Positions 1 through 27,445 of a stretch of DNA of 27,479 nt are shown here, one piece after another. The position numbers were made by a program, and so were the translations under genes. This DNA comes from a virus: IMG/VR virus record IMGVR_UViG_3300020442_001263, positions 1-27,479 of that record, one strand, 5' to 3'. The notes beneath the pieces are model-generated. The model had not been told where the DNA came from. It did no database searches and saw nothing but the letters and a program-made list of their open reading frames with translations. Positions within the stretch are counted from its first letter, which is position 1. Each line of letters begins with the position of its first letter.

Positions 1-448
1 GTACTTTATAGTCCTGTTGTTCAAGCCACCGTATCACATTATCCCAACGATCGTGTATGGGATCCTTATCTAGGCCAGGAAAGGACAAGTTATACTTCGA
101 TCTCCACAAAACAACAGACCTGTTGTTTGTAATTTTTACATTAGGGTGCCACAGTCCGTGAAGGGGATTAAACTCATCAACGTTGTTAATGAATCTGTAT
201 TTTGGGTTACTGTTAGTGGCATGAGTAACGGTTACGTTATTTCTTGGTAGCATTGTACTATACACATAGTACATTCGTTCTATTATAGTCTCGGGGTCGT
301 CGGGTGATTCTTTGAAGTCAAGATCATGCTTCCAATGGAAGTTGATGTTTACATCAGTGTCGTACTTTATAGAAGCGTTATGAGCGTATCCCAATCCTGT
401 TACAAAATCACCATAACCAAATCCACTTCGCCATTCAATTTTCAACAT
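1..448 (-). CDS. Partial GT-B-like glycosyltransferase or related protein (3' end cut by window edge)
   Basis: I translated this frame by hand: it is open from an ATG at 448 to the window edge, 149 codons with no stop. The first residues read MLKIEWRSGFGYGDFVTGLGY, minus the last residue a glycine-rich first strand and loop like those opening the N-terminal Rossmann domain of GT-B or heptosyltransferase-like enzymes. Near residues 116-149 a second strand-helix unit begins (VVLWRSK, then a helix with RWDNVIRWLEQQ), where the second Rossmann domain of such enzymes would start. The gene overlaps the stop of the upstream oxygenase-like gene by 14 bases, so translation is probably coupled; no clear Shine-Dalgarno is visible. 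The family assignment is inference from fold-like pattern only. That the frame is a real gene is well supported by length, codon content and operon position. Confidence 0.6.
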   Translation of the reverse strand, partial: MLKIEWRSGFGYGDFVTGLGYAHNASIKYDTDVNINFHWKHDLDFKESPDDPETIIERMYYVYSTMLPRNNVTVTHATNSNPKYRFINNVDEFNPLHGLWHPNVKITNNRSVVLWRSKYNLSFPGLDKDPIHDRWDNVIRWLEQQDYKV

Positions 449-1130
449 CTGTTTTGGGACCCATAGAGTCAATGTCAACGGGTATGTTACCTACACCAGT
501 ACATTCTTCAATAAGACTTTTCCAAAGTTCTCGGTGCTTTACAACCCATCCTATTGTTAATCTTGGCTTCTTAGTATAAGCAGTGTGCCAGAAAAGATTG
601 TCCATTTCATATCTTATATCGTTATAGTAACCAAATCTAAAATTCCAACCAGGTACATCTTGGAGAACCGTAAATTCATTTGTTTGCTGATTGTAATACT
701 TGAAGTACCCGTCACCGTCCATACTATATGTCATAAGGAAATTATATCCAGGTGCACCTCCATTGTGATGCCAACCTATAAAACCTTCTTCGGGATAGAA
801 CATAGTTAGAGCATTATGCGGAGATCCAATATAATTTACTAATCTGTTTAAATAAGGAACCGCTATACTATTCCAATATACACCTTTAGCCTCTATTAGA
901 TTAGTGTCGACTCCATACGCGCAACGGGGCCAGTCAAACTCTTTAGCAGGACACTCCAGCGCCTTATAAAGGTACTCATCTGAGTATCCCGATAATCCAG
1001 CAAAATTGGACTCTCCGCGTACACAACGAGATGTCAGCTCACGCATTACCTCTTCATCATTAAAAACCGCATCAGCAAAACTTGATAGGATTTTCTGAAT
1101 CGTAGGGTTGATCATTGTAAGTTGGTACAT
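435..1130 (-). CDS. 2OG-Fe(II) oxygenase-like protein
   Basis: This 231-residue protein has the layout of a 2-oxoglutarate/Fe(II) dioxygenase double-stranded beta helix. GWHHN at 119-123 supplies the first metal histidine, FWH at 180-182 the distal histidine, and PRLTIGW places Arg190 eight residues later, as expected for the 2OG carboxylate contact. The usual HxD/E acid appears to be Asn123 if H121 is the first ligand. Family members often hydroxylate proteins, nucleobases or small molecules; the substrate here is unknown. The gene sits between two glycosyltransferase-like genes. The ATG at 1130 has AGGA about ten bases upstream but makes a 59-base overlap with the preceding gene. An in-frame ATG at 1046 (residue 29) would remove the overlap, though its ribosome site is poorly spaced. 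I kept the longer start because residues 7-28 look like coding sequence. Confidence 0.6.
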   Translation of the reverse strand: MYQLTMINPTIQKILSSFADAVFNDEEVMRELTSRCVRGESNFAGLSGYSDEYLYKALECPAKEFDWPRCAYGVDTNLIEAKGVYWNSIAVPYLNRLVNYIGSPHNALTMFYPEEGFIGWHHNGGAPGYNFLMTYSMDGDGYFKYYNQQTNEFTVLQDVPGWNFRFGYYNDIRYEMDNLFWHTAYTKKPRLTIGWVVKHRELWKSLIEECTGVGNIPVDIDSMGPKTDVEN

Positions 1131-1872
1131 TCTCTAGATTCCTAGCTACTACCTTTTTCCAGTACTCCATACTACAGTACATATCTCTTGGTATTTGATA
1201 CACAACTGGAGACTTTACATCAACAGTTTGTCTACCTTCGGGTAACACACAATTGAACCTTCTGTCACCCTCTACAACCCTATCCTTAAACTTCTCGTAT
1301 TCAGGATACATTGCATTTACCATTGACCATAAAGTAAACATATCAAACCCTCTCCATATATCATGTGACCACTCATCATGTGGCCATGGGTTTGCTAATT
1401 GTTTTATATACTCGTTCCACCACGTATCGATAAACTCAACATTAAGATCATTCTTTTTGTACCAAGCTACTGCACCGTGAAAGTAAGGAAACAGTTTCCT
1501 ATCCTTATCGATATACTCAAGCTCCCTTCTAGCAATAGTATATACTAGATTTTTGGTCATGTGTATTTTATCTGTAATACCATCAAATACCTTTGCTATG
1601 TCAGGATGTATTATAATCGAATCGCAATCATTATAGAATGTATTATCATAAGGAGTCCGAGCCATGCACCACATCTTTGCACGTCTGTGGACTGGAATAT
1701 TGGTGACTATATTATCAAAAAGCTGGACAGCTCTATCATCTACAAACGTATCGTGTGTAAATAAGGTAACGTGAGCTTGTGGGTGCAAATCCTTTAGTGA
1801 TTGAGCTGATAGAATAGCTAACTCATAATACATCGCATTAAGAGATGCAACGTAGATATAACCATTATTCAT
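1072..1872 (-). CDS. GT-A fold glycosyltransferase (GT8-like)
   Basis: This 266-residue protein resembles small phage nucleotide-sugar transferases of the GT-A fold. Visible elements are an N-terminal strand-helix (YIYVASLN, then a helix ending LKDLHP), a second strand VTLFTH at 35-40, the metal-binding DxD as NDCDS with Asp82 and Asp84, FHGAVAWYKK at 131-140 where GT8-like enzymes have an acceptor-side strand, and HDEWSHDIW at 165-173 with acidic and histidine residues in the likely active site. No signal peptide or membrane segment is seen, so it should act in the host cytoplasm. Its start overlaps the preceding stop by eight bases. The acceptor could be host surface glycan precursors, phage DNA or virion proteins; nothing in the sequence decides. 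The family call is fairly safe, the substrate is not known. Confidence 0.7.
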   Translation of the reverse strand: MNNGYIYVASLNAMYYELAILSAQSLKDLHPQAHVTLFTHDTFVDDRAVQLFDNIVTNIPVHRRAKMWCMARTPYDNTFYNDCDSIIIHPDIAKVFDGITDKIHMTKNLVYTIARRELEYIDKDRKLFPYFHGAVAWYKKNDLNVEFIDTWWNEYIKQLANPWPHDEWSHDIWRGFDMFTLWSMVNAMYPEYEKFKDRVVEGDRRFNCVLPEGRQTVDVKSPVVYQIPRDMYCSMEYWKKVVARNLENVPTYNDQPYDSENPIKFC

Positions 1873-2349: not shown

Positions 2350-4272
2350 TTATCCTATTCTACGCCATAATGTAGTCTGTGAGATGGTTTGTATTGCAGA
2401 TCCAACTGAAGTTGCTCCAGAAGTGTATACAGCCGTTCCACCGTATTGAGCTCCTCCAGCAAATTGTGCAGGCCCTGCGAACCCTCCGGTACCGGTAAAT
2501 TGACCAATACCAGCAAACGCTACTGGTCCAACACCAGCAAACCCAGCTTGTCCACCAAACTGCGCAGGTCCTGTGTATTGTGCACCGCCAGCAAATTGTG
2601 CTAAACCAGTAAACTGAGCTAAACCACCATATTGAACCGGTCCATAGTATATGTCGGTAGTAAAGTATTGAGCTGGGCCAGTATATGTAACAGGTCCGTA
2701 ATATATGTCAGTATTAAAATACTGTACAGTAACAAAATATTGAGCTGGGCCAGTGAATTGCTGTACAGAAACATACTGCGTACCCGGACCGTAGTAAACA
2801 ACGAATGGACCGGCATATGATATTGGGGGGCCAGCAAATGCTGTTACAGGACCACTAAATTGAAAGGGTCCATAGTATTGTCCTACCCCTGTAAAGGTTC
2901 CGGTACCAGCAAAATTAGCAGGTAGTGGTCCATAGTAATCAATTGGTTCACCAAACGGTCCAAACGTGCCATCAGTAAACGGTACATTTGGAATTACTCC
3001 GGAATACTGTTTAGGTCCAACATAGTAAGCAAGTCCTGCAAACCACTGAAAACCTGCAAATTGTTGTTGACCAAAGTATTGAACTCCAGGACCCTGAAAA
3101 GTTGGTGGTCCGCCACCTTGCCCTGGTTGAAAGAAAGGATTTTCAGACCCCGCAAATGTTGCGGTTCCTGCAAACTGAGCTGTCCCAGTGAAACCCGTTG
3201 TCCCAGCAAATGGATTAGTTCCTACAAATGTAGTTTGACCAGTAAACGAACCAGTCCCAGCAAATGGATTTGTACCGACAAAAGTAGTTTGACCGGTGAA
3301 CTGTGCTGGACCAGTAAACTGAGCTGGACCAGTAAAATTACCCCCTCCACCAAATTGTGCTTGACCTGTAAATTGAGCTGGTCCAGTGTATGTAACTGGA
3401 GCAATACTAGTAAACTGAGCAGGTCCGCTATACTGTACAGGACCTACATAAGTGAGTGGCCCCGTATACTGTGCGCCCCCACCAAACTGAGCAGGTCCAG
3501 TAAAACTGGCGCTCGCCGATGTACTTCGTCTAGTATCCGTGATCGTACCTACGTTTACCCAAGTACCGGGAGTTGGAGCTGATTGTTGTAGAAGATACTT
3601 GCCTATATTATTGTCAACAATTCTTGATCTGACTGCTCGAGCTAAATCCGCGATCTGACTGTCTGTCATTAACTGCAGACTTGCTTCATTAGTATACGGT
3701 GCATATCTCAAAGGTCGGCACAGCAGCGTCGTTGAGTCAGTAATCTTTTTATACAGGAATGTTGAATTACTATTTGACTTGTCCACCTCATCCATGAGAG
3801 TAGCAGCAACTGTCCACGTACCACCATGAGCACTTGCGGGCGATGTATTTGATATCCTATAACACCCAGCAGCTTCATTTGTAACCATGTGGGTGATTAT
3901 GTCGTCTGCAAACGCGTCTAACTCCGTGTCAGTGAATTGACGAATAGCAGTGATATCATAGTCCCATGTAACAGGTTTATCTGAAGGATTGCCTATGTTA
4001 TTTGTGACTAGGTCTTGATAGAGAGTTATTGTGTTGGATGTAATACTAATGTCAGAAGAGCCTACGTCTTCTGTCCTAGTATCAACGTGAGTACCTATAG
4101 ATGTGTAGTTGCCATTTGACCCAGCTGTAAGAAAAAGATCTCCAGCTCCATCAGAAGAGGCAAACTTCTCTAACACTTTGTCTGCAATAGCAGTAAACTC
4201 AGCGTTAGAAACCATTTGAACCAAGGCTTCTCCCGGATGAGTTTTTAAGGTAAGTGTATTAGGTCTGGCCAC
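2350..4272 (-). CDS. Virion protein with three N-terminal repeat units and about 57 aromatic-glycine hexapeptides
   Basis: This 640-residue protein has two parts. Residues 1-256 contain three diverged copies of one unit, near 22-70, 115-165 and 203-250: a helix like ELDAFADDIITHMV, then a glycine and aromatic turn, then GTW or NYT with a short strand ending VGTITDTR or similar. Residues 257-621 are a run of [F/Y]-x-G-x-x-x hexads, many reading FTGPAQ, YTGPAQ or FAGGAQ; the run is interrupted around 377-388 and 430-450. The last residues (TLWRRIG) are non-repetitive. Start is GTG at 4272, two bases after the upstream stop, with a G-rich GGGGTGG before it. The composition and operon position suggest an elongated virion or adhesion protein; such repeats occur in marine T4-like phages, but I know no defined function. 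Confidence 0.8.
   Translation of the reverse strand: MARPNTLTLKTHPGEALVQMVSNAEFTAIADKVLEKFASSDGAGDLFLTAGSNGNYTSIGTHVDTRTEDVGSSDISITSNTITLYQDLVTNNIGNPSDKPVTWDYDITAIRQFTDTELDAFADDIITHMVTNEAAGCYRISNTSPASAHGGTWTVAATLMDEVDKSNSNSTFLYKKITDSTTLLCRPLRYAPYTNEASLQLMTDSQIADLARAVRSRIVDNNIGKYLLQQSAPTPGTWVNVGTITDTRRSTSASASFTGPAQFGGGAQYTGPLTYVGPVQYSGPAQFTSIAPVTYTGPAQFTGQAQFGGGGNFTGPAQFTGPAQFTGQTTFVGTNPFAGTGSFTGQTTFVGTNPFAGTTGFTGTAQFAGTATFAGSENPFFQPGQGGGPPTFQGPGVQYFGQQQFAGFQWFAGLAYYVGPKQYSGVIPNVPFTDGTFGPFGEPIDYYGPLPANFAGTGTFTGVGQYYGPFQFSGPVTAFAGPPISYAGPFVVYYGPGTQYVSVQQFTGPAQYFVTVQYFNTDIYYGPVTYTGPAQYFTTDIYYGPVQYGGLAQFTGLAQFAGGAQYTGPAQFGGQAGFAGVGPVAFAGIGQFTGTGGFAGPAQFAGGAQYGGTAVYTSGATSVGSAIQTISQTTLWRRIG
2410..3504 (-). 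repeat. Array of about 57 hexapeptide-coding units (18-base period)
   Basis: On the minus strand the coding sequence repeats with a basic period of 18 bases, each unit giving an aromatic residue, any residue, usually glycine, then three variable residues often ending in Gln. About 57 units fit in 365 residues; the mean is slightly above six because some units carry one to several extra residues. DNA identity between distant units is low to moderate while the protein pattern is kept, which implies selection on the pattern rather than only recent duplication. Confidence 0.85.
3202..3309 (-). repeat. 54-base tandem duplication (three hexads) inside the array
   Basis: Two adjacent 54-base units (3202-3255 and 3256-3309) both begin CCCAGCAAATGGATT on the plus strand and encode FTGQTTFVGTNPFAGT-type blocks. 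They are much closer to each other than to the neighbouring units. A second spaced pair offset by the same 54 bases, starting at 2641 and 2695, encodes the TDIYYGPV blocks (24 of the first 30 bases match). Confidence 0.8.
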
Positions 4273-5409: not shown

Positions 5410-7638
5410 TCAGAACTTTGGATGAGAGCTTGTCGGTGGAGAGAAACCACTTGATGTATATCGGGCTATACCCATAGTGATTCTAAAGTCGTCAACGTAA
5501 CCACCGAGCCTCCTAGTATTATTGTGCATGCTGCCGATCACCAAATTAGTCGATTCGTAATCAGTAGTGTCGGAAGCTGTAATTACCTGTGTTCCATTTA
5601 TATACAACTTAGTACCTTGAGCACCACCTAAACCACCGTGGCATGTTCTAACTAATGCAAAGTGGTACCACTGTCCGGTTGTTGGTGCAGAAGCGGTAGC
5701 AGTAAATGTACTAGCATCTGCATGAATAAACCACTTTCCATTAGCAGGTGAAGTACCAAGAGCCAACCCGTCATTAGTTGCATTTTCATTCTGCTTGGAA
5801 ATTTCAAAAATTCCCATACCTGCAACCGATACTGGATTGGTAGTAAAATATACCCACCCCTCTATAGTTGCATCGCCTTGTCTTACAACAAATGGATCCT
5901 TACGATATATCTGCAGGTAGCTACCAGTATAATTTGACGGAGACCTATCATGCGCAGTGATTACATCTCCGGTACCATCAAACACTAAACCCCCAACGCC
6001 GAACTTTTTGACTGCAGATGAGGCTTGGGCATCGTCTTGCAAGACTAAATTGTTTATTCCAGTCTTGTCAAGTATCGTTGCATCCTGGGCTCTTAAAATT
6101 AATTCCGTTGTAGAACTAAAGGTTGTTAGTGTCGGACTAGATGGTACTGTGATAGTAGTGTCTAATGAATTACCATACGCTGCACTACCTCTAACCGATC
6201 TTATGTTGGACAGGTACCCATCTAGATAAAAATTGGCGTAGTTGCTGTGCACACCAATAGTAGTTGTGTCCGAGCCTGTTCCCATGTCGTAGTTGTAGGT
6301 AGTCGGGCTTAAAACTCGTCTACCATTATTATACATGGCCAGCTGGTTATTGTATCTTGTTACAACAATATGATTCCACGCACCTGCTCTTACTTTATCA
6401 TTCGCCGCACTCGATGATTTTACTTCGCTACCACTAGCCCCAGCATAAATTGTAATTCTACCAGAACTATCAATACCAATATAACGATTACTAGTGCTCT
6501 GACCAGCAATCATAGCAAAAACGCTGCGCCATTTATTAATATAAACCCAGCACTCGAAAGTGAAATCAGCTGTGCCGTAAGTTAAAGAGCGGCCGCTTGA
6601 AACAACTAACTGAGCATTTGGGTCGCTAGGAAAACCAAATGATCCTCCTGTACCGGAAATTGTAACTGGCCCATCTTTTCTAAATGGCGACCACGCTGAC
6701 ATTCTCGCGCGGTATTCACCTACAAACTCATTATCAAGTTCTTTATTTACATCAGTGGTAGACGGGGTGTTTCCTTCGCTATAAAAATCATGCCTATGAA
6801 AAGCCAAGAACATAGTATTATTTGGCACATCTGATAGTGCAAACTTTGCTGTCGGTACAGCAAAGTTACTGGTTGGATCATATACTGCTTGATTTCTAAC
6901 TATCCTTAAATTAGATAGGTTACATCGATTGTATCTATTGGTAGTTGTTTGGTGCCCTATGTGGAGAGCTCGACTGGCTCCTCCTCCTATAGAGTTACCA
7001 TATGAAGCACTTCCAGCATTTACACCATTTACACAAATGTAAATTGTACGGTTTACACCATCAGTCAAATGTCCAATGATCGCAATGTGATACCATTGGT
7101 TTACTTTAGTTAAAGGATTAGTAGTTGAATTTACCTGACTTGCATTATTAGTATCAAAGTAAATGTTTTGACCATTTTGATGTACAGCCCACCATTGTTC
7201 AGAATTAGTACCTTGGGTTGCGTTTGTGTCTAAGATTGTTGCAAGACTACCAGATGAATAGCTAGTGTTGAGTGTACTTGGCTTAAACCAAAACTCAATA
7301 GTAAACTCGCCATTTACACCAGCCAATGTTTGGCCCGAATGGTAATCGCCTTGGGTTTCTACACGAGAATAATTTACAGATGAGCCTTCCAGAACATTGG
7401 TTGCTCCACTTAAATCAACAGACCAGTTTGGAAGAAAAGGACTGAAAGCACCCTTGGAAACATACGAACTGTCTGTAATGGTATAGTTGCCAGCCGTATC
7501 AGTAATTGTACTGTTGTTGTCACCGTTAACTGCATCACCATCAATGAGAAGGGTTACGTTTTTAAAGGTGTTGTCACCTTCTCCAGTACCCGCCTGCCCT
7601 GCGGCTGCCTGCATCAATAGTTTGGAATTTTTGCTCAT
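5410..7638 (-). CDS. Adhesin-like virion protein with three LamG/concanavalin-like domains
   Basis: This 742-residue protein contains three copies of a laminin-G/concanavalin A-like jelly roll. Each copy has a hydrophobic strand (FTIEFWFKP at 112, FTFECWVYIN at 359, ATIEGWVYF at 591), a W-x-H strand (QWYHIAII at 181, AWNHIVVTR at 420, QWYHFALVR at 657) and a terminal strand (LSNLRIVRN at 241, LSNIRSVRG at 476, VDDFRITMG at 715). These folds commonly bind glycans, which fits a receptor-binding or host-surface adhesin. The copies are well diverged. The N-terminal 25 residues are Ala/Gly-rich and lack the docking motif of the neighbouring fibres. The ATG at 7638 overlaps the upstream stop (TAATG). 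Its assembly chaperone candidate follows at once. Function as a receptor-binding protein is inferred. Confidence 0.82.
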   Translation of the reverse strand: MSKNSKLLMQAAAGQAGTGEGDNTFKNVTLLIDGDAVNGDNNSTITDTAGNYTITDSSYVSKGAFSPFLPNWSVDLSGATNVLEGSSVNYSRVETQGDYHSGQTLAGVNGEFTIEFWFKPSTLNTSYSSGSLATILDTNATQGTNSEQWWAVHQNGQNIYFDTNNASQVNSTTNPLTKVNQWYHIAIIGHLTDGVNRTIYICVNGVNAGSASYGNSIGGGASRALHIGHQTTTNRYNRCNLSNLRIVRNQAVYDPTSNFAVPTAKFALSDVPNNTMFLAFHRHDFYSEGNTPSTTDVNKELDNEFVGEYRARMSAWSPFRKDGPVTISGTGGSFGFPSDPNAQLVVSSGRSLTYGTADFTFECWVYINKWRSVFAMIAGQSTSNRYIGIDSSGRITIYAGASGSEVKSSSAANDKVRAGAWNHIVVTRYNNQLAMYNNGRRVLSPTTYNYDMGTGSDTTTIGVHSNYANFYLDGYLSNIRSVRGSAAYGNSLDTTITVPSSPTLTTFSSTTELILRAQDATILDKTGINNLVLQDDAQASSAVKKFGVGGLVFDGTGDVITAHDRSPSNYTGSYLQIYRKDPFVVRQGDATIEGWVYFTTNPVSVAGMGIFEISKQNENATNDGLALGTSPANGKWFIHADASTFTATASAPTTGQWYHFALVRTCHGGLGGAQGTKLYINGTQVITASDTTDYESTNLVIGSMHNNTRRLGGYVDDFRITMGIARYTSSGFSPPTSSHPKF

Positions 7639-17037: not shown

Positions 17038-19095
17038 TTAAATTACTCGAGTGTACCTTAGGATACCATTAGACGTGGCTCCGCCAACGAATGGTGTGTT
17101 CATAGTAAACGAGGTGTTGCTGAATACAGTATTAACTATATAGGTCGTGTTACCAACAGCTGAACCAAGCTGCTTGTCTTCAATCTCAATGAAGCTACCA
17201 CCCTGCAAGAATGTACCAAACGTTGCATTACCATCACCCTGTACGTTAAATGCTGTACCAAACATTACAGGCTCTGGTAAGTAGCTTGTGATAGCAAATG
17301 TCAAGAAGTTATTAACTACATTGTTATTCGCAACGTAGATGGTACCGTTAGCAGTTACAAACTGATTCTGTACTGTTAGAGCAGGTGCAACTATTGTATT
17401 AGAAGTAATTGACGGTACAATAGCAGCAAGTTCAATAACTATATTACCAAACGTTGTGTTGGCTGCTATACTTGGCAGACCTTGCTTACCACCGACTAGA
17501 TCAGAAGTCAATGCAGATTCAACTGTTACTCCGGAAGCATCAATTGTTTTACCAATGTTCACTGTACCAAATAGTTTAGTACCAGCTGGATGGATTACAT
17601 CGTGTACTATATCTCTATATGTTTTAAGAGCTGTAGATGAATTAATGTCATAACTGAATTGCTGATAGTAGTAATTATCCTGCAACCTCATATCAGAAGA
17701 CAACTGACCTTTTGTTCCTTTGTATGCTCCCGGAAGAGTTACAACACCCGAGATAACTGGATCACCAATACCGTTGTTAGTACCACCTCTACTTGTATTG
17801 ACTACTGTAACTGCATCAATAGCATTGTAGGATGTACCACCGTTCAATACTGTAATGTCGGTAATCGAACCGGGCTGGAACGAAGCATTTAACAATGCAT
17901 TGCGTCCTTTAAACCCTCCAAACCCATCCGGTAGGTCAAGTGGACTAACAATCGAATCCTCTGCTACTACAATTGGTAATGTTACATCATAGTTACCAAG
18001 AGTAGTAGTCAGCGATGCTATCTTGCCTGCTGTTATTGCAAAAGTCCCCAGTGCTGCGCTCAATGCAGTAGAGGAATTAGAAGAAGCAAGATTGGAACTT
18101 ATTACACCAGAGTTCGAACTATATGTCGGACCATAACCAATTGGTGTTTGTTTCAGATTCTCAATTGTATCAGTGTACCCAAATAAAGTCTCTGTGTTGG
18201 ATATGGACGCTACTGTAGCAGAACCAACTAAGCCACCCTTTACATTACCACCTGAAATTGTAATAACCGTGTCACCAACTGTATATCCACTACCACCACT
18301 TAGTATGTTAAAGTCTACAGCTTGGTTAGTAGTAGCGTCAATCCTACCTGTTGCTTGAGAGCCAGTAGTACTAGTTAAATTTACAAAGTCACCGACCTGG
18401 TGACCTGTACCACCAGTTGTACTAGCAGTACCAAATGTAACGTCTGTCAGAGGACCAATAGTATTAACAACATAACCACCTATACCATCACTAGTCAATA
18501 CTTGCTCAAGGTCAAAGAAAGTACCAGATACCTCCACCAACCTAAACTGAGTAACCGCAATACCATTTTCAAAAACAGATAGTACTCTGGTTACTTTGCC
18601 TTTTGCGCCGGAGTTCTGTCCCGTGACAACTTTATCGATAGCATTATCTAAGTTACCTGAGAAAGGCTGACCTAGTCTAAGGACTGTATCCTGCTGCCAC
18701 CTTCCGTCAGACGCTCTCAGAATGCTTTCCGAAGGTCTAACGACTGATATATCCTCGTCAAATAAAATTCGAAATAGAAGGTTATACGCAGCACTACTAC
18801 CTTTTGATCTATACAGATCCTTAATTCGTTTTGCGACTAATCTTTGATCGGCAAGAATAACCTTAGGAAAATCACAAAGTACTTCTTTCTTAAAGTATTC
18901 ATAAAACTTTTCAAGATCAGTAGTATCGATATCCTGATAGTTTAAAAGATTCCTACTAGCGTCCGTAGCTTGATTAGTAGTCTCCATCCACTCATAATAC
19001 GCTTTCATAAACGCAATGAGATTAGGACCATCCTCAACCAGATATTGAGGAAGCTGACTCTGTACTAACGCTGATGTTTTGTTATTTGTAGCCAT
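17038..19095 (-). CDS. Baseplate wedge structural protein in the gp7 position
   Basis: This 685-residue protein starts with a conserved helical module (residues 15-130): YLVEDGPNLIAFMKAYYEWME, minus the last residue, then DIDTTDLEKFYEYFKKE, then KRIKDLYRSKGSSAAYNLLF and an ILRASDGRW end. This module is common in baseplate proteins of marine T4-like phages. Later come beta repeats of GGTGHQVGDFV, GGSGYTVGDTVITI and GGTSYNAIDAV type, and a strand-rich C-terminus. It lies between gp6 and gp8, exactly where T4 has gp7, but is much shorter than T4 gp7 (1032 residues), and I cannot show sequence homology to it by eye. The start overlaps the gp6 stop by one base (TAATG). Role in the wedge is inferred from order and module. 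Confidence 0.8.
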   Translation of the reverse strand: MATNNKTSALVQSQLPQYLVEDGPNLIAFMKAYYEWMETTNQATDASRNLLNYQDIDTTDLEKFYEYFKKEVLCDFPKVILADQRLVAKRIKDLYRSKGSSAAYNLLFRILFDEDISVVRPSESILRASDGRWQQDTVLRLGQPFSGNLDNAIDKVVTGQNSGAKGKVTRVLSVFENGIAVTQFRLVEVSGTFFDLEQVLTSDGIGGYVVNTIGPLTDVTFGTASTTGGTGHQVGDFVNLTSTTGSQATGRIDATTNQAVDFNILSGGSGYTVGDTVITISGGNVKGGLVGSATVASISNTETLFGYTDTIENLKQTPIGYGPTYSSNSGVISSNLASSNSSTALSAALGTFAITAGKIASLTTTLGNYDVTLPIVVAEDSIVSPLDLPDGFGGFKGRNALLNASFQPGSITDITVLNGGTSYNAIDAVTVVNTSRGGTNNGIGDPVISGVVTLPGAYKGTKGQLSSDMRLQDNYYYQQFSYDINSSTALKTYRDIVHDVIHPAGTKLFGTVNIGKTIDASGVTVESALTSDLVGGKQGLPSIAANTTFGNIVIELAAIVPSITSNTIVAPALTVQNQFVTANGTIYVANNNVVNNFLTFAITSYLPEPVMFGTAFNVQGDGNATFGTFLQGGSFIEIEDKQLGSAVGNTTYIVNTVFSNTSFTMNTPFVGGATSNGILRYTRVI

Positions 19096-27007: not shown

Positions 27008-27445
27008 ATGAGAACACATAAGGGATACTATAAGCCACGCAATCCAAACAAGTATAAAGGTGATCCCGATTGTATTATTTATCGGTCCAGTTGGGAAAGG
27101 ATGTTTATGGTTTATTGTGATAACAACCCAAATGTGTTGGAATGGTGTAGTGAGGAAGTAATTATTCCATACAGATCACCACTAGATGGTAGACTTCACA
27201 GATACTATCCAGACTTCCTTATAAAGGTACGTACTGCTAGAGGTGGTACCGATACTATACTTATCGAAGTAAAACCATACGCTCAGACTCAGCCACCTAC
27301 TGTTCGTAGTCGTAAGACCAAAAAGTACATTAACGAGGTTGCTACTTACGGCATAAATAGTAGCAAGTGGAAGTTTGCTAAAGAGTACTGTAAAGATCGA
27401 GGGTGGAAGTTTCAGATCATTACAGAGAAAGAGCTAGGAATCTAA
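27008..27445 (+). CDS. gp4: Head completion protein gp4 (TnsA-like nuclease fold)
   Basis: This 145-residue plus-strand protein matches T4 gp4 (also called gp50; about 150 residues) in length and pattern. It carries the set of a TnsA/PD-(D/E)xK nuclease fold: SSWERMFMVYCDNNP with Glu30, then PNVLEWCSEE, YYPDFLIKV with Asp69, and LIEVKP with Glu87 and Lys89. In T4 the protein acts after packaging to complete the head so that the neck and tail can attach. No Shine-Dalgarno is apparent before the ATG, and the leader between it and the divergent gene is 20 bases. The next gene starts in its stop codon (TAATG). Confidence 0.9.
   Translation: MRTHKGYYKPRNPNKYKGDPDCIIYRSSWERMFMVYCDNNPNVLEWCSEEVIIPYRSPLDGRLHRYYPDFLIKVRTARGGTDTILIEVKPYAQTQPPTVRSRKTKKYINEVATYGINSSKWKFAKEYCKDRGWKFQIITEKELGI
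27076..27083 (-). promoter_or_regulatory. Possible late promoter box (GATAAATA) for the gp48 group, inside gp4
   Basis: The minus strand reads GATAAATA inside the oppositely oriented gp4 gene, 88 bases before the ATG of the tube-cap gene. It is the only such box near the start of the minus-strand series, where the 20-base divergent gap cannot hold a promoter. It lies in coding DNA, so chance is a real alternative. Confidence 0.35.

Follow-up and report, generated by a model that had tools for sequence, protein, structure and literature searches.

A candidate fibre-modification cassette in uncultured phages, with a GT8-like glycosyltransferase and an oxygenase-fold protein carrying an H-x-N site

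The window analysed here, a stretch of 27,479 nucleotides from the IMG/VR virus record IMGVR_UViG_3300020442_001263, likely holds a phage fibre-modification cassette, the core of which consists of a fibre gene, a small partner protein (C160), a GT-A glycosyltransferase (GTA), and a protein with the fold of the 2OG-Fe(II) oxygenases (OX). The core enzymes probably decorate the fibre chemically. All genes of the cassette lie on the minus strand. The fibre FIB640 (2350..4272) is composed of a conserved N-terminal domain, aromatic/Gly repeats, and a C-terminal TLWRR tail, with a [YF]xGPxQ-type repeat region at approximately 2395..3530. It is followed by C160 (1865..2347, 160 aa), a constant member of the core, and then by GTA (1072..1872, 266 aa) and OX (435..1130, 231 aa). 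A further putative glycosyltransferase, GTB (1..448), comes last and is cut by the window edge, which leaves its N-terminal 149 residues.

The original prediction had described GTA, OX, and GTB as an overlapping trio behind the fibre genes, and this arrangement was recovered from the open reading frames: the three genes stand downstream of the fibre genes, with overlaps of 59 bases between GTA and OX and of 14 bases between OX and GTB. The 59-base overlap is backed by the relatives of OX, because these start the protein at a point (MHQLS, MKPIPL, MKEVCL) matching the outer ATG at 1130. Residues of OX are numbered in this 231-aa form; with the inner ATG (1115) taken as the start, the numbers drop by five (His177/Arg185). 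The late expression that had been proposed for the trio is a suggestion drawn purely from gene position; the T4-type late promoter motifs CTAAATA and TATAAATA occur in one copy each in the window, neither of them close to the cassette. For CTAAATA, this single copy in the whole window compares with about 7 expected by chance. Elsewhere in the window, positions 5410-7638 encode a 742-aa protein in which repeated LamG/ConA-like domains can be recognized by eye and which looks like an ordinary adhesin, and a 145-aa ORF on the plus strand (27008-27445) resembles, again by eye, a head-completion nuclease of the T4 gp4 type.

The unit is larger than the predicted trio, and its core is fibre-C160-GTA-OX. 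Among 179 loci, collected with iterated profiles through OX or GTA, these four genes were found adjacent and in the same order in nearly all cases. GTA and OX are neighbours in 174/174 loci, C160 and GTA in 176/176, and OX and GTB in 31/31 loci that bear both side by side, counts in which several loci share contigs and some are near-identical. Because these loci had been fetched by their own OX or GTA, reverse scans were run from the other members of the core: both enzymes were present in 61/61 loci anchored on C160 and in 56/56 anchored on the N-terminal domain of the fibre, counting loci with room for them and with scans that reached fairly close relatives only (the C160 profile being built from a subset of the alignment). 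Clustering of the OX sequences gave 96 groups at 85% identity and 42 groups at 60%, so the cassette does not stem from repeated sampling of a single phage. Downstream of OX the genes differ between loci, so the four core genes stay together amid changing surroundings.

The core gene set was found in more than a hundred uncultured phages. A search of 50,697 deposited phage records returned phage C48C1 alone for GTA and for the fibre N-terminal domain; for OX it returned C48C1 and, as a weak match, one record of an uncultured phage. C48C1 carries fibre-C160-GTA-OX in order, with a repeat fibre of 3347 aa; its pair of GTB and radical-SAM genes lies about 53 kb away. This very long fibre, seen in part of a 10-kb gene (L020:1-8449), has [YF]xGN-type repeats with inserted unique segments. 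The C48C1 genome (OQ984149.1) also encodes OX paralogues away from the fibres (18267-18920 and 40130-40804), one after a tail tube gene and one between a helicase and a NifU-like gene.

The identification of OX as a 2OG-Fe(II) oxygenase-like protein was followed up by structure prediction and comparison with the PDB. The AlphaFold2 model (pLDDT 93.7, pTM 0.89) is, with high confidence, an eight-stranded double-stranded beta-helix (DSBH), and its PDB matches are 2OG oxygenases, namely PHD2 (Z 9.1), bacterial P4H (Z 8.5), PiuC, Tpa1, OGFOD1, and ALKBH7. The active site is atypical. The iron triad usual for these enzymes, H-x-D/E...H, is replaced by H-x-N...H, with His121-His122-Asn123 (762..770, minus strand) placed at the position of H-x-D by aligning OX to PHD2 by eye. 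The distal His182 and Arg190 (561..587, minus strand), presumably a metal ligand and the residue that binds 2OG, stand where the two final DSBH strands of the model begin. W-H-x-N, the distal His, and the Arg that follows it are invariant in an alignment of 68 non-redundant relatives, and H-x-N was kept in 318/318 OX sequences, bacterial homologues included; the viral relatives sampled were the best 80 of 524. PHD2 and bacterial P4H thus share with OX the DSBH and, as judged by eye, the positions of the proximal and distal His and of the Arg, but they carry H-x-D in place of H-x-N and are about 10% identical to it. Judged by its model, OX is a protein of 2OG-oxygenase fold with an atypical site and not a canonical member of the superfamily.

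No match to the OX family was found in Pfam, PHROG, or NCBIfam, PDB sequence profiles returned nothing useful for OX or GTB, and family scans with the window's own GTA, OX, and GTB proteins were equally uninformative. A natural H-x-N oxygenase was not encountered in the literature covered, from which most subscription journals fall out. That OX hydroxylates is an assumption on our part, with an H-x-N site short of the usual carboxylate. A 2OG oxygenase can work with an incomplete triad, as AspH does: the usual carboxylate ligand is absent from this enzyme, and variants with one protein iron ligand stay active (PMC8252765). AspH resembles OX in falling short of the H-x-D/E...H triad and is nevertheless active (PMC8252765); it differs from OX in using two His and in acting on EGF-like domains, and no sequence relationship between the two proteins was found. 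Remote OX homologues in bacterial contigs (L182-L189) keep W-H-x-N, and several of them adjoin polysaccharide genes. The homologue in L184 bears a ParB-like C-terminal part, and L188 resembles a phage fibre region in which a separate ParB-like gene follows OX.

GTA was assigned to the GT-A glycosyltransferases with a DxD motif, and its relatives support this. Profile matches place it as a GT8/Nucleotid_trans-like enzyme: among its relatives, Pfam Nucleotid_trans matches at 3.5e-7 (the relative in L039 passes the cut-off with 30.9 versus 22 bits) and Glyco_transf_8 at 7.6e-6, and the window protein itself has no Pfam match. DxD was kept in 316/316 GTA relatives, and the Asp pair of the window's motif (Asp82-Cys83-Asp84; 1621..1629, minus strand) is invariant in an alignment of 67 rows. 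The residues named in the original prediction, Asp82 and Asp84 in GTA and His182 and Arg190 in OX, are thus all present, and their conservation in relatives is far above chance. GT8/Nucleotid_trans enzymes, glycogenin among them, are GT-A proteins with DxD like GTA; glycogenin was also matched by PDB profile, but weakly (E 0.065), which gives a lead for tyrosine acceptors only and not a demonstration of tyrosine glycosylation.

The GT-B character of the third gene was borne out on a full-length relative (L003:6695-7474), for which AlphaFold2 predicted a GT-B fold (pLDDT 89.7) nearest to the GT9 heptosyltransferases WaaC (Z 10.6) and TibC (Z 10.5). GTB had no Pfam or NCBIfam match, and its placement as a GT-B, GT9-like glycosyltransferase comes from the predicted fold. 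It shares the GT-B fold with WaaC and TibC; unlike them, it is shorter (about 260 aa), is without a sequence-family match, and stands outside the core. GTB is missing from most loci and, where present, is usually followed by a radical SAM/SPASM gene; the add-on to which the two belong often also includes a GT2 and a P4H-like oxygenase. It is a separable, optional accessory to the fibre-C160-GTA-OX core. In three loci (L019:6764-9066, L010:8202-10504, and L013:8143-10999), GTB is followed by a radical SAM/SPASM gene, an oppositely oriented GT2 gene, and a P4H-like 2OG oxygenase that has the ordinary H-x-D; in L012, GTB is replaced by a GT25 gene. The C-terminal end of phrog_61, a PHROG profile of 689 positions, is matched by the P4H-like protein of L019 and its N-terminal end by the GT25 protein of L012, which suggests phage proteins in which GT25 and a 2OG oxygenase are fused. 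The original prediction had let all three enzymes act in one pathway. This is well supported for GTA and OX, which linkage in both directions and covariation place in a unit with the fibre, and not for the trio as a whole, with GTB often absent, coming with radical SAM, and lying 53 kb off in C48C1; neither the H-x-N motif, nor the repeat fibre and C160 as partners, nor the optional nature of GTB had been foreseen.

After the conserved N-terminal domain, the fibres share a region of low complexity in which Tyr/Phe, Gly, Thr, and Ser abound. In 67 non-redundant fibres, Tyr and Phe together make up a median of 22.5% of the repeat region and Gly 19%, and the spacing from one aromatic residue to the next peaks at four and then at six, the latter being the [YF]xGPxQ form of the window. 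The motif [YF]xG was enriched at least 1.9-fold over shuffled sequence in each of the 67 (medians 25 observed and 6.3 expected). Beyond the recurring aromatic and Gly residues, the positions vary, so that the sequence fixes no acceptor. The repeats are of the [YF]xGx type and not of the collagen type, Gly-X-Y with Lys/Pro targets. Pro is absent from the repeat region of 19/67 fibres and Lys from 20/67, for which reason a hexose or other sugar linked to hydroxyproline or hydroxylysine, the product that the original prediction suggested looking for on virion fibres, is unlikely as a general product, each residue being missing in over a quarter of the fibres. A universal prolyl or lysyl target was rejected on the same composition. 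The N-terminal domain of the window's fibre (3523-4272) appears to consist of a unit of about 75 residues that recurs and contains GTW motifs. The literature covered, which again left out most subscription journals, yielded no description of such a class of fibres.

The composition of the repeats varies together with the core enzymes. In partial Mantel tests, which shared history can inflate and whose covariation could be mimicked by recombination between N-terminal domain and repeats, the distances between fibres in repeat composition correlated with OX distances when the fibre N-terminal domain was controlled for (partial r 0.41, permutation p 0.001), with those of GTA (0.36), and with those of C160 (0.37), and the correlation of the N-terminal domain itself with repeat composition came to 0.03 after allowing for OX. 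When OX and C160 were each corrected for the other, OX gave 0.25 and C160 0.17 as predictors of the repeats, and in the same comparison without GTB-bearing loci the values were 0.23 and 0.06. OX is the core gene farthest from the repeats, yet it predicts them at least as well as the adjacent C160. The covariation fits the repeats as the target of OX, and together with the linkage in both directions it makes it a well-supported proposal that GTA and OX are one functional unit with the fibre.

In the likely sequence of events, the low-complexity [YF]xGx region of the fibre would be the substrate, and C160, perhaps a fibre chaperone or adaptor, would probably bind or present the newly made fibre. 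OX, provided that its atypical H-x-N...H iron site is active, would oxidize a residue of the repeat, and GTA would use a nucleotide sugar to glycosylate the repeat, either at the new hydroxyl or at an adjacent Thr, Ser, or Tyr; the order in which OX and GTA act is likewise proposed here. GTB, which is optional, would be a further glycosyltransferase and may lengthen or diversify the decoration or act on a different target. A more specific version, which we put forward tentatively and hold to be doubtful, is a dedicated two-step decoration in which the H-x-N dioxygenase hydroxylates a residue of the Tyr/Gly repeat (the beta carbon of Tyr/Phe is one candidate position) and the GT8/glycogenin-like enzyme adds a sugar. 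If true, the product would be a fibrous protein that is not collagen, is heavily glycosylated, and has no described counterpart in phages.

The original prediction had left fibres, host surface glycans, and phage DNA side by side as targets, among which linkage and covariation favour the fibres. What speaks against the fibre is that some bacterial OX homologues adjoin polysaccharide genes and that two OX paralogues of C48C1 stand apart from its fibres. The main competitor, which we regard as unlikely, is that GTA, OX, and GTB alter the glycans of the host surface, either O antigen or capsule, for instance to block superinfection, and are found near fibres because both concern host recognition. 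It draws on those bacterial neighbourhoods and on host-recognition regions of pelagimyophages with GT8 and fibre genes, which were read as modifying the host O-chain (PMC7029224). Genes that modify surfaces, however, have no need of a single fibre family, yet all anchored loci with room carry both enzymes, and repeat composition covaries with OX. The nearness of the GTB fold to the LPS heptosyltransferase WaaC also points to the host surface, but TibC, which glycosylates an adhesin protein, is just as close.

It is a good deal less probable that OX oxidizes sugar and not peptide, with GTA glycosylating the fibre or another target and OX acting on the glycan or on the nucleotide-sugar donor. 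GTA does stand ahead of OX in the operon, and bacterial homologues in L182, L186, and L187 adjoin sugar-nucleotide, glycosyltransferase, and acyltransferase-like genes; few homologues adjoin polysaccharide genes, however, and the structural neighbours of OX are mostly oxygenases of peptides, amino acids, or nucleic acids, although the fold alone cannot tell. Hydroxylation followed by sugar transfer is known on nucleobases, and one of the C48C1 paralogues lies near a helicase gene, but the core has fibre genes around it and is bound to a single fibre family, which makes the modification of phage DNA bases by these enzymes very unlikely. The constant linkage to fibre and C160, and an H-x-N that is without the usual carboxylate ligand, would also suit an OX (and perhaps a GTA) that is no longer an enzyme and acts in fibre assembly or as a scaffold. 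This is very improbable, since H-x-N is invariant in 318 sequences and DxD in 316, and the distal His and the Arg are kept across the alignment, as would be expected of catalysts; AspH, moreover, is active despite its missing carboxylate (PMC8252765).

For the preferred reading, in which the fibre itself is modified, the nearest known arrangement is found in mimivirus, where the lysyl hydroxylase/glucosyltransferase L230 and the glucosyltransferase R699 modify collagen (PMC9546862), so that oxygenase and glycosyltransferase activities of a virus act on its own repetitive fibrous protein. The mimivirus substrate is collagen with Lys, whereas the [YF]xGx repeats of the cassette frequently lack Lys or Pro; in the cassette, furthermore, a gene of its own encodes each of OX and GTA, and OX is without a match to a known sequence family. 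The pelagimyophage host-recognition clusters resemble the cassette in having GT8 genes near tail-fibre genes (PMC7029224). In contrast to the cassette, they are read as modifying the host O-chain, and the portion of that source seen describes no fibre-C160-GTA-OX unit.

Current annotation misses OX because it matched no family in the libraries covered and hardly occurs in deposited phage genomes. Its invariant H-x-N, common to the bacterial homologues, offers a natural variant for direct tests of iron/2OG chemistry. Glycosyltransferases next to phage fibres are now mostly read as modifiers of the host surface, and the cassette provides a case in which the fibre is the likelier target. If this is true, phages would alter their own fibres chemically through an oxygenase and a glycosyltransferase devoted to that task, in addition to the switching of fibre genes and changes to host glycans, with a bearing on host range, fibre stability, and the evasion of host defences.
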